Shown here: in pieces, positions 34,373 through 42,125 of the stretch
Numbering within the stretch: position 1 is the first letter of the stretch
Layout of the letters: every line of letters begins with the position of its first letter
DNA from: Nitrosomonadales bacterium
GTDB taxonomy: Bacteria; Pseudomonadota; Gammaproteobacteria; Burkholderiales; Gallionellaceae
Length of the DNA: 64,000 bases
Direction: 5' to 3'
Assembly (NCBI GenBank): GCA_023259055.1
Contig: JAHFQZ010000003.1
Location: 124,001 to 188,000 of the forward strand
The notes under the pieces: generated by a model
The model's database searches: none
Told to the model about the DNA's origin: nothing
Seen by the model: only the letters and a program-made list of their open reading frames with translations
Position numbers and translations under genes: made by a program

Positions 34373-34513
34373 GGGTGCCTCTAGAAATTCAGAGTTCGCT
34401 CAAATGCAAGGCGCGGGAAAAATTTCGCAGCGCCGCATATGTATGATATGTAAGCAAGAAATTTTTCCCGCAACGCAGCAGTTGAGATGAAATCTGGATT
34501 TATAGGGGTGCCC
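34373..34513. mobile_element. MITE-like palindromic element, copy 1, filling the tesA-ybbA intergenic region
   Basis: 141 bp, with terminal inverted repeats GGGTGCCTCTA... and ...TATAGGGGTGCCC and an overall near-palindromic body (GGGAAAAATTTC and GAAATTTTTCCC arms around CATATG). A second copy in inverted orientation is at 42374-42515. It has no coding capacity. It runs exactly from the base after the tesA ATG to the base before the ybbA ATG. Confidence 0.82.
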
Positions 34514-35179
34514 ATGGCAGAGATTGTGCAGGCAATTGATCTAAGCAAGCAAGTACTAAGCGGCGAACAGCCGCTGACAATCTTGCACGAGGTCAATTTT
34601 GCAGTCGAAGCGGGTGACAGCCTGTCGATCGTCGGCGCCTCCGGTTCCGGCAAATCCACGTTGCTAGGCCTGCTGGCCGGGCTGGACGAGCCGAGCAGCG
34701 GCAGCGTGCGGCTCGACGGCGCGGATTTGTTCGCGCTGGACGAAGACGGCCGCGCCAGACTGCGCGGCGAACTGGTGGGCTTTGTGTTCCAGTCCTTCCA
34801 GTTGCTGCCTGCACTCTCCGCGCTGGAAAACGTCATGCTGCCGCTGGAGCTGCGCGGAACACAGGATGCGCGATCACGCGCTACAGAATCGCTGCGACAG
34901 GTCGGCCTGAGCGAACGCGCCCACCATCTTCCCAAACACCTTTCAGGCGGCGAGCAGCAGCGCGTCGCGCTGGCCCGCGCCTTCGTCACCCAACCCAAAA
35001 TTCTGTTCGCCGACGAACCCACCGGCAATCTCGATGCCGCCACCGGCGCGCAGGTCATCGAATTGCTGCTGGAACTCAACCGCGCACAGGGCACGACTCT
35101 GATCCTGGTCACCCACGACGAAGCGCTGGCACGGCGTTGCGGCAGGCAGCTGCGGCTGGAGGCGGGTCGGGTGGTTTAG
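34514..35179 (+). CDS. ybbA: ABC transporter ATP-binding protein YbbA
   Basis: 221 residues. Walker A is GASGSGKST, Q-loop VFQSFQLLPALSALENVMLPLEL, signature LSGGEQQRVALARAF, Walker B ILFADEPTGNLD and H-loop VTHD. It belongs to the MacB/LolD-like group and pairs with the FtsX-type permease YbbP. The ATG at 34514 lies 5 nt after AGGGG (34504-34508) in the MITE end. Unusually, its permease gene is not adjacent but 4.4 kb downstream. Confidence 0.93.
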   Translation: MAEIVQAIDLSKQVLSGEQPLTILHEVNFAVEAGDSLSIVGASGSGKSTLLGLLAGLDEPSSGSVRLDGADLFALDEDGRARLRGELVGFVFQSFQLLPALSALENVMLPLELRGTQDARSRATESLRQVGLSERAHHLPKHLSGGEQQRVALARAFVTQPKILFADEPTGNLDAATGAQVIELLLELNRAQGTTLILVTHDEALARRCGRQLRLEAGRVV

Positions 35180-35195
35180 TGATGCCCTCTCCTTT

Positions 35196-35318
35196 CCCGT
35201 CATTCCGGCGCAGGCCGGAATCCAGCCTATCGAAAATCTCCCGCGCAACGCGCGGAACAAAACCGAACTGCATATTTGATAAACCCAACTGGATTCCGGC
35301 CTGCGCCGGAATGACGGG
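35196..35318. repeat. Palindrome pair 1 (REP-like, ATTCC type) upstream of the GIY-YIG gene
   Basis: Two 30-bp near-palindromes, 35196-35225 and 35289-35318, are exact inverted copies of one another, 63 nt apart. Each half is itself a hairpin: ATTCCGGC, GCAG, GCCGGAAT. Flanks are CCCGTC and CCAG. Confidence 0.9.
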
Positions 35319-35335
35319 GTTTGGAGGCGCGGAGA

Positions 35336-35626
35336 ATGATTAGGCAGCCTTGCGTTTATTTACTGGCCAGCAAACGTAACGGCACGTTGTATGTTGGTGT
35401 AACCTCAGACTTGGTCAAGCGTGTGTGGGGACACAAGAACCATGTTGTCGATGGCTTCACTAAAAAGTATAACGTTTGCGATCTGGTTTGGTATGAAGTG
35501 CATGAAACGATGGAGTCAGCCATTCAGCGAGAAAAGGCGATCAAGGAATGGCAACGGGCGTGGAAGTTGAAAGTGATTGAAGAATTCAATCCAGAATGGA
35601 AAGATTTATATGACACAGTTTGTTAG
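35336..35626 (+). CDS. GIY-YIG nuclease domain protein
   Basis: A 96-residue single-domain protein. CVYLLASKRNGTLYVGVTSDLVKRV has the GIY-YIG pair (VYL ... YVG) and the catalytic Arg; FTKKYNVCDLVWYE and the conserved Glu/Asn end (EFNPEWKDLY) follow. Small proteins of this type are widespread in Proteobacteria and of unknown role. It is framed on both sides by pairs of REP-like palindromes and sits inside the interrupted ybbA-ybbP operon. ATG at 35336; no strong ribosome binding site beyond GGAG at 35331-35334. Confidence 0.9.
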   Translation: MIRQPCVYLLASKRNGTLYVGVTSDLVKRVWGHKNHVVDGFTKKYNVCDLVWYEVHETMESAIQREKAIKEWQRAWKLKVIEEFNPEWKDLYDTVC

Positions 35627-35664
35627 TGACGATCGAAGAAACAAACCATGCAATTTTCGCTTAG

Positions 35665-35779
35665 CCCGTCATACCGGCGCTGGCCGGTATCCAGCGTTTT
35701 TTCAAATACGCCGTTGCTTTTGTCCGCGTGTTGCACGGGCTATTCAACTGACTGGATACCGGCCTGCGCCGGTATGACG
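35665..35779. repeat. Palindrome pair 2 (REP-like, ATACC type) downstream of the GIY-YIG gene
   Basis: Near-palindromes at 35665-35694 and 35752-35779 in inverted orientation. The hairpin is ATACCGGC, GCTG or GCAG, GCCGGTAT. Compared with pair 1, T-A changes at the third stem position are compensated on the other arm. Confidence 0.9.
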
Positions 35780-35787
35780 AAATCTGA

Positions 35788-38700
35788 ATGATTGACCTCA
35801 AAATGACCGGCCAATTTTCCGATTTCTACAACAACCTCGATGCCGATCCTGCCAAGCGGGGCAAGCAGTTCGAGCACTTCGTCAAATGGTTCCTCAAAGC
35901 CGATCCCGAATGGTCAACTCAAGTTGATCAAGTATGGTTGTGGGATGAATGGCCGGGGCGCTGGGGTGCGGACTGCGGGATTGACCTTGTGTTTCGCCAC
36001 AAGAACGGCGAGCACTGGGCGGTGCAGACCAAGTGCTACTCGCGCGACTACGACATCACCAAACATGACGTCGATAAATTCCTCAGTGAATCCAGCCGTA
36101 AGGAAATAATTGTACATCGCCTGCTGATTGCTACCACCGACGGTATCGGCGCGAACGCTAGAAAAACTTGCGATGATCATGGCGTCATCCGTTTTCTGCT
36201 GTCCGACTTCGATAAATCCGCGCTGGATTATCCCGCCAACTTCGCTGCTCTGCCGCAAGCCAAACGCAAACCCCGCCCCGAACCGCGCGACCACCAAAAC
36301 GAAGCCAGAGCGGCCGTGGTGCGAGGCCTGCAAAACGCCGACCGTGGCCAGCTCATCATGGCTTGCGGCACGGGCAAAACTTACGTCACGCTGTGGATCA
36401 AGGAAGCACTAAACGCGCAACGCACCTTGGTGCTGGTTCCGTCCCTGGGGCTGCTGTCCCAGCTTCTGCGCGAATGGACATTCGCCGCCGCCACCCCGTT
36501 TGAAGTGCTGTGCGTCTGCTCGGATCAAACCGTCGGTGCAAAGGGGCACGACGAAGCTATCCATAGCGTGGCTGATCTAGCTTTCCCCGTCACCTCCGAT
36601 GCTGAGGAAGTAAAGAATTTCCTCAGCGGCACAGGCAACCGTGTGGTGTTCTCCACCTACCAATCTTCCTTCATCATTAAAGATGCCCAAGCCGACTCGG
36701 CCATTCCCGCGTTCGATCTGGCAGTGGCGGACGAAGCCCACCGTTGCGCGGGCAAGGTCGGCAACGACTTCACTGCCATTCTCGACAACGGCCAGATACG
36801 CAGCACAAAAAGGTTATTCGCCACCGCCACCCCGCGCACCTACTCCAGCACCGTCCATAAAGCCGCCGAAGATCGCGGCGTCGAAGTGGTCGGCATGGAC
36901 AACGCCGCCCTGTTAGGCGAAGTGCTGTATGCCCTGCCGTTCGGCAAAGCCATCGAGCGCAAACTGCTCACCGATTACCGCGTCGTCATCATCGGCGTGG
37001 ACGACCCCACCATCGCGCAGTGGATCGCCAAGCGCGAACTGATCACTACCGGAACGGGTATCGAGACAGACAGCGAATCGCTCGCCGCCCAGATCGGCCT
37101 ACTCAAAGCCATCAAGGACTACGACCTCAAGCGCATCATAAGCTTCCACAGCCGCGTCAAGCGCGCCGAAGCCTTCACCACCGACATACAAAACACCATG
37201 CAGTGGATCAGCGACGAACATCGCCCCAGCGGAACCCTGCGCACCGACTTCGTCTCCGGCAACATGCCCGCCAACAAACGCAAGATCAAACTCGACCAAC
37301 TAAAAGCATTGGGTGCAGACGAACGCGGTGTGCTGAGCAATGCGCGCTGCCTGTCCGAAGGTGTGGACGTGCCATCGCTCGACGGCGTGGCGTTCATCGA
37401 TCCGCGCAGCAGCCAGGTGGACATCATCCAGGCCGTGGGTCGCGCCATACGACTGAGTCCGGACAAGAAGGCGGGAACCATCGTCCTCCCGGTATTCCTT
37501 AAAGTTGGCGAAGATGCTGCAAGCACGATAGAGGAGAGCAACTTCAAGCCGATTTGGGAGGTATTGGATGCGTTGAAGGCGCACGATGATGTGCTGGCTT
37601 GTGAGCTGGACCAGATTAGAACTGAGATGGGCAGAAAGTCGGGTTCAGCTTTTAATCCGAGAGACCTCAATAAAATCACCATTGACCTGCCTGCTACAGT
37701 GGATGCGAATTTCAGCAGCGCACTACGCACTTATCTAGTTGAGCAAGTCACGGAGTCTTGGAACTTCTCGTTTGGATTGTTGGAGGCCTTCGTCGAACGT
37801 GAGGGGCATTGCTTGCCTCCACAGCGATACAAAACAGATGCTGGATATCACCTTGGAAGGTGGGTCAGTGGTCAGCGACAAACAAATGACAGACTATCGC
37901 CAGAGCGCAAAGTACGGTTGGAATCATTATCCGGTTGGGTTTGGGATGCAATTTCGGAGCAGTGGGAAATAGGATTTCGCCATCTCAAAGAATTCGCAGA
38001 ACGCGAGGGATATGCAAAGGTTCCTGCGGTATATAAAGCAGACGATGGATACCACCTTGGTGAATGGGTAGGAAGTCAGCGGAGAGCAAAAGACAGCCTG
38101 CCGCCGGAGTACAAGGTGCGGCTGGATGCAGTACCCGGTTGGAGTTGGGATGCTTTGTCAGATAAGTGGGAAGAAGGGTTTCTCTATCTCAAAGAATTTG
38201 CAGGTCGAGAGGGGCATTGTTCGCCCCCTCAGCGATATAAAACAAATGATGGATATCGCCTTGGTGGTTGGGTAAGTCACCAACGAATATACAAAAATAA
38301 TTTGTCAGCGGAGCGCAAAGCACGGCTGGAAGCACTACCCGGTTGGGTTTGGGATGTGATAGCTGAGCAGTGGGAAGAAGGGTTTCGCCGTCTCAAAGAA
38401 TTCACGGATCAAGAGGGATATGCCAAGGCTCCTGGTGATTACAAAACGGCAGATGGATTCAGTCTTGGCGGCTGGGTAAGTGAACGGCGGAAAGCACAAG
38501 ATAACCTGCCAGCGGAGCGCAAAGCACGGCTAGAAGCATTGCCCGGTTGGGTTTGGGCAGAACGGGTTTCGCTTGAGCGGAAACAATGGGATGAATGGTT
38601 CAACTACCTTAAAGAATTTGCAGATCGAGAAGGACATACCAAGGTACCTAGCGATTACAAAACAGCAGATGGATATAGCCTTGGGCGATTTGTACTTAGC

Positions 38701-39600
38701 CAACGAGCAACAAAAGACGATTTATCATCGGAGCGTAAAGCACGGCTGGAAGCATTACCGGAATGGAGTTGGAATACTTTGTCAGATAAGTGGGAGGAAG
38801 GATTTCGCTATCTCAAAGAATTCGCAGATCGTGAGGGGCATGCCAATGTACCAGGCAATTACAAAACGGCAGATGGATACTGCCTTGGTGGTTGGGTAAG
38901 TCACCAACGAGAAAAAAAAGACAACCTGTCAGTGGAACGTAAAGTTCGGCTGGAAACATTACCTGGCTGGGTTTGGGATGCAATATTAGAGCAATGGGAA
39001 GAAGGGTTTCGCTATCTCAAAGAATTTACAGTTCGAGAGGATCATGCCAAAGTTCCACAAGATTATAAAACGGCAGATGGATATCGCCTTGGTCAGTGGG
39101 TAGGTGTTCAGCGAAAAAGAAAAGACAATCCATCACCGGAACGAAAAGCACGGCTGGAAGCATTACCCGGTTGGGTTTGGGAGGCAACTTCGAAGCAGTG
39201 GGAAGAAGGGTTTCGTTATCTCAAAGAATTCGCAGATCGTGAGGGGCATTGTTTGGTTCCAGGGCTATACAGAACAGATGATGGATACCGCCTTGGTCAG
39301 TGGGTAGGTGTTCAGCGAAAAAGAAAAGATAACCCGTCTCCCGAACGCAAGGCTCAGCTTGAATCATTGCCGGGATGGAGTTGGGATACTTTGTCAGATA
39401 AGTGGGAAGAAGGGTTTCGTTTTCTCAAGGAGTTCGCAGATCAAGAGGGACATGCTAGGGTTCCTCAGCGATATAAAACGGCAGATGGATACCGTCTTGG
39501 TCAGTGGGGTAGTGTCCAACGAGAAAATAAAGACAATGTGTCAGCAGAGCGTAAAGCACGGCTGGAAGTATTACCCGGTTGGGTTTGGCAGGTAAAGTGA
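35788..39600 (+). CDS. PD-(D/E)xK-like nuclease/DEAH helicase with nine helicase-associated repeats
   Basis: 1270 residues. N-terminal part (about 20-135): restriction-endonuclease-like with GIDLV (Asp66) and VQTK (Gln80, Lys82). Helicase: Walker A ACGTGKT (192-198), DEAH at 315-318, ATATPR (345-350), and motif [10 protein letters not shown] (about 548-555). From about residue 653 to the end there are nine tandem units of about 68 residues (unit 4 has 72) with a W-GF--L-EF--REGH--VP--YK--DGY-LG-WV--QR pattern, typical of the helicase-associated domain. No methyltransferase or specificity subunit is adjacent. The repeat half is lower in GC than the catalytic half. It stops 2 nt before ybbP. 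Probably an accessory, possibly defence, enzyme. Confidence 0.88.
37741..39597 (+). repeat. Tandem 204-bp coding repeats (nine helicase-associated units)
   Basis: Nine coding units, eight of 204 bp and one of 216 bp, give the 68-residue domains. DNA identity is highest between units 7 and 8 (both contain [18 protein letters not shown]), suggesting recent duplication; unit 1 is most diverged. Confidence 0.9.
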
Positions 39601-39602
39601 AA

Positions 39603-42125
39603 ATGAACCTCCTCCGCCTATCACTCAACCTGCTGCGCCGCGACTGGCGCGCCGGGGAATGGCGCGTGCTGCTGCTGGCGCTGGTGCTGGCGGTGGGTAG
39701 TCTTTCCACCGTCGGGCTGTTCGCCGACCGCGTGCGGCAGGCGTTGCAGCAGGAGGCACAGAGCCTGATCGGGGCGGATATGCGCATCACTTCGATGCGC
39801 CCTTTTCCGCCAGCCTATCGTGCTGCGGCGCAGATGCGAGGGTTGCAGACGGTGTTGAGCATGTCTTTTCCGAGCATGGTGGTGTTTGGCGAACAAAACC
39901 TGCTGAGTGAAATCCAGCTGGTCGAGCCGGGTTACCCGCTGCGCGGCAAGATCACGATCGACGACGGCAGCGCGCATGTTGCGCAGCATATTCCCGCGCC
40001 GGGCACGATCTGGGCGAGCCAGCGTCTGTTGCGCCGGCTTGAGATACGGCTGGGCGACGAAGTCAGTATCGGCAGGCAACGCTTCGTCGTGGCGGCTGCC
40101 ATCGTGCGCGACATCGATCAGTCGATCGGGTTTGCCAGTTTTGCGCCGCGCGTGTTGCTGAATGCGCAGGACCTTGCTGCAACGGGCCTGGATCAGGAAG
40201 GCAGCCGCATCAATTACCGGTTGCTGATCGCGGGAGATGCGCGGCAGGTTGCCGAGCTGCGCGACGAGCTGAAAAGTAAACTGACCGACTATCAGAGGCT
40301 GGAAGATGTGCGCGATGCACGACCGGAAATTCGCACCGCGCTGGAACGCGCCGAGCATTTCCTCGGGCTCGCCGCGCTGACAGCGGCGATCCTCGCGGGT
40401 GCGGCGATGGCGCTGGCGTCGCGGCGTTTCGTGCTGCGCCATCTGGACGGCTGCGCGGTGATGCGCTGCCTCGGCGCGCAACAGGGGCAGGTGCTGCGAC
40501 TGTTCCTCTACCAGTTCCTGCTGCTGGGCGTGGTTGCGGTGCTGCTCGGTTGTGCGCTGGGTTATGCCACGCAGGCCGTGCTGGTCGGGTTCATCGAATC
40601 GATGCGCGAGGCGGAGTTGCCGCAGCCGACCGTGTTGCCCGCGCTCAAAGCGGTCGCAAGTGGCTTCGCGTTGTTGCTCGGTTTTGCCTTCCTGCCGTTG
40701 CTGCAATTGCGCAAGGTGTCGCCGCTGCGTGTGCTGCGCCGCGAGCTGGGCGCGCCGCAAACCAGTACGGGCATGGTGTATGGACTGGCGGTGCTGGTGC
40801 TGGCAGGTTTGTTCCTGTGGCAGGCGGGCTCGTTCGAACTGGGCTTCGCGATGCTGGGCGGGCTGCTTGCGGGCCTGCTGCTGTTCGGCGGACTGGCGGG
40901 GTTAATGCTCTATGGATTGGCGCGTTACTCATCCGTCTTTCATCCGCAGTTACGCCATGCCCTTAACAATCTGGCGCGGCACGGGCGCGAATCGGCGCTG
41001 CAGGTGGTGGCGCTTGGCTTGGGTGGCATGGCATTGCTGTTGTTGACGCTGGTGCGCGGTGATCTCCTGCAAAGCTGGCAGGGCAAGCTGCCGCCGGAAA
41101 CGCCGAACCGTTTTGTGGTTAACATCCAGCCCGATCAACGACAACCCTTGCTCGATTTTTTCGCGCGGCAGTCCGTACCGCAGCCGGAGTTGCTGCCAAT
41201 GGTGCGCGGCAGGCTGATCGCCATTAATGCCGCTCCGATCATGGGCGACAACTATCCCGATCCGCGCGCCCGCGAGCTGGTGGAGCGCGATTTCAACCTG
41301 TCCTGGGCCGAGCAGATGCCGGGCTGGAACGAGCTGGTGAGCGGCAGTTGGTGGATACCTCAAAGTGTGAAAGCACTGGATTACGGCCTTCGCCGGAATG
41401 ACGAAATTTCAGGTGAGCGCAAGGAGCTTTCGGTGGAAGAGGGCATCGCCGAAAGGCTCGGCATCCATCTTGGCGACGAGCTCACCTACGAGGTGGCGGG
41501 CAGCCGCTTCACCGCGCGGGTGGTCAATCTGCGCAAGGTGCAATGGGATTCGATGAAGGTGAATTTCTTTGTGATCACCACGCCGGAGCTGCTCAGGGAT
41601 TATCCGGTGAGCTATCTCACCAGCTTCTATCTTCCGCCGGACAAGGTTCGAGTTGGCGATCAACTGGTGCGGGAATTCCCCACGATGCTGGTGATCGACA
41701 CCGGCGCGTTGATCGCGCAGATACGCGGCATCATGGACCAGATCGCGCAAACCATCACAGTGGTGTTCCTGTTCACACTGTTTAGCGGCCTTGCGGTGCT
41801 GTATGCCGCGCTGCTTGCCACGCAGGACGAGCGCATCCGCGAGGCGGCGATCCTGCGTACTCTGGGTGCGGACAGCCGTTACCTCCGCCGCTTGCATCTG
41901 GGCGAATTTGCCGTGCTGGGGTTGCTGAGCGGCCTGTTCTCCGCCGGTGGCGCGGTGCTGCTGGGCTGGGTGCTGGCGCGCTTCGTCCTGGAAATCCCGT
42001 ATCACGCAAGCACAGTCATCTGGCCGGTCGGCGGATTGGGCGGCATGGTGGTGGTGATGCTGGCTGGCTGGCTGGGTACGCGGCGATTGACCGTGCTGCC
42101 ACCGCTGGTAATATTGCGGGAATAG
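39603..42125 (+). CDS. ybbP: FtsX-type ABC transporter permease YbbP
   Basis: About 840 residues. Membrane helix 1 is at the N-terminus, two FtsX/MacB-type helix bundles (about 255-440 and 710-840) and periplasmic domains. It partners YbbA in a lipoprotein- or lipid-related exporter of unknown substrate. The ATG at 39603 lies 2 nt after the helicase stop. Residues 592-604 (ALDYGLRRNDEIS) are encoded by a REP-like half-palindrome and interrupt the normal sequence between GSWW and SVEEGIAERLG. Confidence 0.92.
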   Translation: MNLLRLSLNLLRRDWRAGEWRVLLLALVLAVGSLSTVGLFADRVRQALQQEAQSLIGADMRITSMRPFPPAYRAAAQMRGLQTVLSMSFPSMVVFGEQNLLSEIQLVEPGYPLRGKITIDDGSAHVAQHIPAPGTIWASQRLLRRLEIRLGDEVSIGRQRFVVAAAIVRDIDQSIGFASFAPRVLLNAQDLAATGLDQEGSRINYRLLIAGDARQVAELRDELKSKLTDYQRLEDVRDARPEIRTALERAEHFLGLAALTAAILAGAAMALASRRFVLRHLDGCAVMRCLGAQQGQVLRLFLYQFLLLGVVAVLLGCALGYATQAVLVGFIESMREAELPQPTVLPALKAVASGFALLLGFAFLPLLQLRKVSPLRVLRRELGAPQTSTGMVYGLAVLVLAGLFLWQAGSFELGFAMLGGLLAGLLLFGGLAGLMLYGLARYSSVFHPQLRHALNNLARHGRESALQVVALGLGGMALLLLTLVRGDLLQSWQGKLPPETPNRFVVNIQPDQRQPLLDFFARQSVPQPELLPMVRGRLIAINAAPIMGDNYPDPRARELVERDFNLSWAEQMPGWNELVSGSWWIPQSVKALDYGLRRNDEISGERKELSVEEGIAERLGIHLGDELTYEVAGSRFTARVVNLRKVQWDSMKVNFFVITTPELLRDYPVSYLTSFYLPPDKVRVGDQLVREFPTMLVIDTGALIAQIRGIMDQIAQTITVVFLFTLFSGLAVLYAALLATQDERIREAAILRTLGADSRYLRRLHLGEFAVLGLLSGLFSAGGAVLLGWVLARFVLEIPYHASTVIWPVGGLGGMVVVMLAGWLGTRRLTVLPPLVILRE
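41376..41412 (+). repeat. REP-like half-palindrome inside the ybbP coding sequence
   Basis: The segment starts CTGGATTACGGCC and continues TTCGCCGGAATGACGAAAT; it matches the right-hand arms at 35289 and 35752 with few changes. It is in frame and codes for LDYGLRRNDEI. Confidence 0.8.

Follow-up and report, generated by a model that had tools for sequence, protein, structure and literature searches.

A Type ISP-related nuclease-motor protein with a variable array of helicase-associated units, a candidate modular reader of DNA

Background

What is a nuclease-motor protein for, if it carries a string of helicase-associated (HA) units where related restriction enzymes carry the parts that read and methylate DNA? 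The question is raised by one gene, at 35788..39600 on the plus strand of the 64,000-nucleotide stretch of DNA analysed here (the window). HA repeats (PF03457) are widespread and annotated merely as 'helicase associated'. The pattern at this locus, a Type ISP motor whose DNA-reading half is replaced by a hypervariable repeat array, offers a concrete and testable function for them. A first-pass annotation, made from the letters of the sequence, had proposed a candidate stand-alone defence enzyme with an expandable recognition array.

Domain architecture

The gene is a single uninterrupted open frame of 1270 aa; an alternative start ATG at 35803 (Met6) agrees with the start of most homologues. 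Pfam assigns Mrr_cat_2 to residues 37-150 (E 7e-32), ResIII to 165-350 and Helicase_C to 448-556, followed by HA (PF03457, E 1e-141), for which nine stretches score above the curated cut-off of 28.4 bits. All HA matches of the genome lie inside this gene. The Mrr-type PD-(D/E)xK nuclease domain thus occupies 35896..36237, with D66, Q80 and K82 as its characteristic residues. The SF2 helicase-like motor (36262..37626, aa about 159-613) is supported by Pfam, by homology to LlaBIII and LlaGI, by a Foldseek match to 4xqk and by the invariant motifs ACGTGKT (192-198), DEAH (315-318), TATP (346-349) and QAVGRAIR (548-555). These results bear out the first-pass description of an N-terminal PD-(D/E)xK-like domain, a DEAH helicase core and nine HA units in one 1270-residue protein.

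Relationship to Type ISP enzymes

In the Type ISP enzymes LlaBIII (PDB 4xqk) and LlaGI (5ffj), as in the window protein, an Mrr nuclease and an SF2 motor share a single chain, with fold and active-site motifs in common. Residues 9-658 of LlaBIII align to aa 5-613 of the window protein over 609 residues (E 4e-87), and LlaGI aligns less fully. An AlphaFold model of aa 1-782 (pLDDT 86.5) is matched best in the PDB by LlaBIII 4xqk (Foldseek E 7e-47, TM 0.67 on the query); SauUSI is among the structural matches, and the motor additionally matches RadD and XPB. In the model, D66 and Q80-x-K82 are located at the strand pair 67-71/76-82. These residues, on which the nuclease assignment had been based at first pass, are invariant in eight homologues and likewise in a wider set of 27, drawn from Proteobacteria, Actinomycetota, Planctomycetota, Verrucomicrobiota, Chlamydiae and others, in which the Walker lysine, the DEAH box and the Q-G-R of QAVGR are also invariant. 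Relatives of the window protein come from Gallionella-group and other beta- and gammaproteobacterial genomes.

Beyond the motor, the two architectures part. After this core, Type ISP enzymes found in the search, such as L102, carry the coupler PF22240, an N6-methyltransferase and Type_ISP_C (PF18135, E 4e-107 in L102), whereas the window protein has tandem HA units in place of this half. The coupler, strong in L102, goes unmatched here at E 0.1; there is likewise no methyltransferase Pfam match, and the Type_ISP_C specificity domain is absent. The [ND]PP[YFW] motif, present in Type ISP homologues, is absent from the HA homologues scanned. Because coupler, N6-methyltransferase and PF18135 are all missing, we regard the window protein, on its sequence, as related to Type ISP enzymes and not as one of them. 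In LlaBIII, binding to the target triggers translocation, and two converging enzymes nick the DNA, giving a break (PMC7049714). Such a collision mechanism is established for LlaBIII (PMC7049714); since coupler, methyltransferase and TRD have been lost, the LlaBIII coupling path cannot be assumed for the window protein.

The HA array and its variable face

The nine HA units, all on the plus strand, span aa 652-1267. They comprise unit 1 (37741..37944, aa 652-719), which belongs to a separate conserved lineage, unit 2 (37945..38148, aa 720-787), unit 3 (38149..38352, aa 788-855), unit 4 (38353..38556, aa 856-923), unit 5 (38569..38772, aa 928-995), unit 6 (38773..38976, aa 996-1063; AlphaFold), unit 7 (38977..39180, aa 1064-1131), unit 8 (39181..39384, aa 1132-1199) and unit 9 (39385..39588, aa 1200-1267). 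Each is about 68 aa long, as first described, the sole exception in spacing being a period of 72 at unit 5, which is preceded by four extra residues. An AlphaFold model of four units is very confident (pLDDT 95.3); in each unit, a long loop connects helix 1 (2-21) to helix 2 (38-47), and helix 3 spans 54-61.

Column entropy across 129 units from two core lineages peaks at positions 28, 29, 40, 43, 44, 47 and 48, which flank YKT/LG on both sides and follow QR. Variability had been placed at first pass after QR, before ERK and around EGH; the last two correspond to columns of moderate variability, 54 and 25, respectively. In each of six unit groups, among them Mycobacterium and Verrucomicrobia arrays, columns 40, 43, 44 and 47 are near the top by entropy, as is column 48 in most; correlations of column entropy among the six groups run from 0.62 to 0.90. 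On helix 2 the variable columns are spaced i, i+3, i+4, i+7, i+8, which is a single helix face, and the opposite face (W41, Q45, R46) is nearly fixed. A basic and aromatic frame (R46, K49, R56, W41) is conserved in the units.

The composition of the variable face is distinctive: it is 3.7% acidic, 18% basic and 46% N/Q/H/S/T, whereas exposed helix-1 positions are 36.6% acidic. The net charge of the array is zero. Among the 129 units, 127 of the seven-residue signatures are distinct. When near-neighbour units of the two lineages are compared, the seven main columns have a pN/pS of about 1.07 and the frame one of 0.26; a value near 1 does not prove positive selection when pS is saturated. Taken with the variable helix face and the near-absence of acids, this contrast makes the array look like a diversifying recognition surface, much as the first-pass annotation had suggested. 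The face bears the marks expected of nucleic-acid reading, from which we infer that it may read bases.

For four HA units, Foldseek gave no match under 0.001 and VIA-align a best Z of 4.2. The solved HA entry 2kta was absent among the matches listed despite its sequence similarity, so the fold search is uninformative. PDB entry 2kta, annotated 'putative helicase', is the only PDB chain related in sequence to single HA units (E 5e-9) and, unlike the window array, is a lone 74-residue chain of one isolated HA domain, with neither nucleic acid nor array. We found no solved DNA-bound relative of HA and no paper on 2kta.

Array turnover and unit exchange

Unit number and sequence are far from constant among homologues. 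Proteins with the same core carry 2-13 HA units, and the four copies that lie at the same site as the window gene, between ybbA and ybbP (G000, G048, G057 and G036), have 9, 6, 5 and 6, respectively. Among Gallionella-group relatives with cores 85-90% identical to that of the window protein, arrays are non-collinear and only unit 1 tends to keep its position; the other units have best matches of 53-75%, out of order. The nearest neighbour of a first unit is another first unit in 19 of 19 cases. Units 7 and 8, already noted at first pass to share an identical block, have a 41-nt identical run at codons 37-50, which covers the recognition helix, although the remainder of the two units has 48 mismatches (codon-shuffle P 0.0006). 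Identical DNA runs of at least 40 nt occur in 7 of 350 unit pairs within proteins versus 1 of 7906 between proteins.

Arrays are also swapped. The core of L049 is 82.6% identical to that of the window protein, yet its HA array is of another subtype (B); a similar array is present in L052, whose core belongs to the other lineage, and subtype B is thus found on both. In Planctomycetota, L082 and L084 combine this core with repeats of an unrelated kind that have no Pfam match. In these (L082 1827-5252, L084 7004-10390) we see about six copies of a repeat of ~65 residues, ETWxxIDxALRxGxRGLPGGSSLAKLLAEHRGVRN. The core tree, in which long branches meet, is compatible with one joining of HA arrays to the core or with two. 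HA state changes are overcounted by one row of the tree table, L079, which is scored as methyltransferase and whose HA units belong to a neighbouring frame.

A Mycobacterium pair with cores 98% identical has nine collinear units that are 96-100% identical, and this one very close pair has no accelerated change at the helix face. Because its arrays are near-identical, turnover is judged slow relative to strains, not a strain-level process. The idea of an expandable array thus holds as regards unit number across homologues and does not extend to close strains, at least in this one pair.

Base composition

As first noted, the two halves of the gene differ in composition: GC3 is 0.64 in the nuclease, 0.72 in the helicase and 0.385 in the array, falling at the core-array border. 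Most beta- and gammaproteobacterial relatives show the drop too, on each of two core lineages that share only about 37% identity; in Mycobacterium, Verrucomicrobia and AT-rich genomes it is slight or missing. Since the break is common to the whole lineage, it is to all appearances an old lineage feature and no proof of recent fusion, and assembly from two sources, as the first-pass annotation had read it, is borne out only in part and is not supported as a recent event. The pattern would fit low-GC3 arrays that belong to an old pool and pass from core to core.

Genomic setting

The gene is inserted between a ybbA-like ABC ATPase (34487..35179, plus strand) on the left and a ybbP-like permease (39579..42125, plus strand) on the right, names that we presume from homology to E. 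coli. In several relatives without the insertion, ybbA and ybbP are adjacent; the junction, which in relatives is empty or otherwise filled, has the look of an accessory-gene site. That of G012 (L140 770-1500), the closest relative, has two short frames that by eye resemble a toxin-antitoxin pair. A small GIY-YIG protein (35321..35626, plus strand) is encoded between the left flank and the gene, and adjoins the gene in G048 too. Sequences resembling inverted repeats (CCCGTCATTCCGGCGCAGGCCGGAATCCAG and similar) lie on both sides of the GIY-YIG gene, at 35179-35320 and 35650-35780, the latter stretch stopping just before the nuclease-helicase start.

Copies at other sites adjoin ffh, yceG, ribonucleotide reductase or aminotransferase genes, and the identified neighbours are mostly housekeeping genes, not a defence island. 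No conserved partner gene was found in 26 loci, save the common ybbA-ybbP site and a few two-locus matches. Because no neighbour family recurs in these loci, the protein appears to act alone, in keeping with the earlier remark that no methyltransferase or specificity genes accompany it. Defence-like neighbours turn up singly: a NACHT gene on a Rhodococcus plasmid and, adjoining L088, a DUF4917 gene with weak SIR2/AbiH matches. The ribonucleotide reductase gene beside a Gallionella homologue (L059 3738-7700) contains an intein with a LAGLIDADG domain. In six Gallionella-group homologues (L043, L046, L047, L048, L049 and L058), short in-frame palindromic repeat-like inserts (e.g. LPPLGEGWDEGG) interrupt the motor domain at three recurrent points, about 203-213, 421-426 and 509-518 in window numbering; they keep the frame open and differ between genomes, and the window copy is without them. 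Three assemblies (G040:C174, G003:C234 and G043:C39) break within the gene core, which may reflect several copies or repeats.

Possible functions

Our favoured reading, to which we give somewhat better than even odds, is that the protein is a stand-alone, translocating, modification-independent restriction-like nuclease whose array would read DNA in modules. The HA array would bind DNA, each unit turning its helix-2 face (40, 43, 44, 47, 48) and loop 28-29 to the bases, and the target would be a composite one, defined by the units in the string. Binding would load the Type ISP-like SF2 motor, which would then translocate along dsDNA until two motors converge or stall; at that point the N-terminal Mrr nuclease would nick both strands, in the manner of LlaBIII. 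The host's own DNA could be spared if the long composite target is missing from its genome, with no need for host methylation, and the target would be phage or plasmid DNA. The simplest account would be that HA units read the target and that translocation and cleavage on collision follow, without self-methylation, because motor and nuclease are as in LlaBIII and the array replaces the methylating and reading half. A role in defence is suggested by the motor family, by presence or absence at an accessory site and by the swapping of modules.

The array might instead be a sequence-tolerant DNA clamp or processivity device on a repair or DNA-processing enzyme, with neutral surface drift behind its variability. 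The resemblance of the motor to RadD and XPB, the conserved basic and aromatic frame and the zero net charge of the array would all suit such an enzyme, and a pN/pS near 1 can mean relaxed constraint. Drift, however, would hardly confine variable columns to one helix face common to six unit groups, nor exclude from it the acids that are common at other exposed positions. Arrays that are swapped and turned over while cores remain 85-90% identical, and a gene that is present or absent at an accessory site, also argue against this, and we consider it unlikely. Variable-surfaced repeat arrays often serve as ligand sensors, for instance the TPR arrays of Avs proteins. On that analogy the HA array could sense phage proteins or another ligand and so activate the nuclease; a NACHT gene does lie near a homologue on a Rhodococcus plasmid. 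The variable face, however, is acid-poor and rich in N/Q/S/T/K/R, which points to nucleic acid, and the array sits where Type ISP enzymes have their DNA-reading MTase-TRD, leaving a ligand sensor decidedly improbable.

Slightly less credible again is a Type IV-like enzyme acting on modified or altered DNA, with HA units as readers of the modification. An Mrr-type nuclease with no methyltransferase, a weak PADLOC match to mREase_IV and the structural match to SauUSI lean towards it, but a modification pocket should conserve the columns of the face, and these are the most variable part of every unit. Presence or absence between ybbA and ybbP, the GIY-YIG gene next door and the different sites occupied by other copies could also bring to mind a selfish nuclease of the homing kind, with an array directed at the vacant site where its gene inserts. 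Such an array should be shared by same-site copies; theirs differ in unit number, and their units are no more alike than elsewhere. Homing to the insertion site is accordingly disfavoured and strikes us as very improbable.

A stronger claim, that of a DNA code read one unit at a time, we put forward tentatively and at somewhat less than even odds. On this view HA arrays would be modular DNA-binding repeats of a new natural class, able to read sequence, and would take the place of the methyltransferase-specificity half in Type ISP enzymes. A single protein could then restrict without modification, its target changing as units are reshuffled, converted or swapped. TALE and zinc-finger arrays are modular DNA-reading repeats. 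They share with the HA array a near-identical tandem scaffold, hypervariable fixed columns, varying repeat number and inter-repeat recombination, whereas their sequences are unrelated to it; the tandem layout, the variable residues in fixed columns and the varying unit number are all seen here. Were each unit of the array to read its own part of the DNA, nature would have a repeat-based reader with no sequence kinship to TALEs and zinc fingers. It would also have a means of restriction that dispenses with self-methylation, which may let a cell destroy chosen foreign DNA without marking its own.

Known systems and database searches

PADLOC-DB contains no full match to a described defence protein, the best matches covering the N-terminal half of Type IIG/I enzymes only. 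A search of viral contigs with the core found no relative, and 24 phage records match in the motor or core half only, none covering 80% of the query. In the open literature we found no paper on nuclease-motor-HA proteins; a search on PF03457 gave one paper, on plants and unrelated. A comparable layout is seen in HA-domain SF2 helicases (PF03457) without a nuclease match, on many plasmids of Streptomyces, Rhodococcus and Pseudomonas: as in the window protein, the SF2 motor comes before tandem HA units. Plasmid records that match the window protein number in the hundreds; among the matches listed, however, most leave out the nuclease, starting no earlier than query residue 133. On a Tsukamurella plasmid (L165 4380-8046), three HA-domain genes without helicase annotation lie just upstream of an HA-type DEAD/DEAH helicase.
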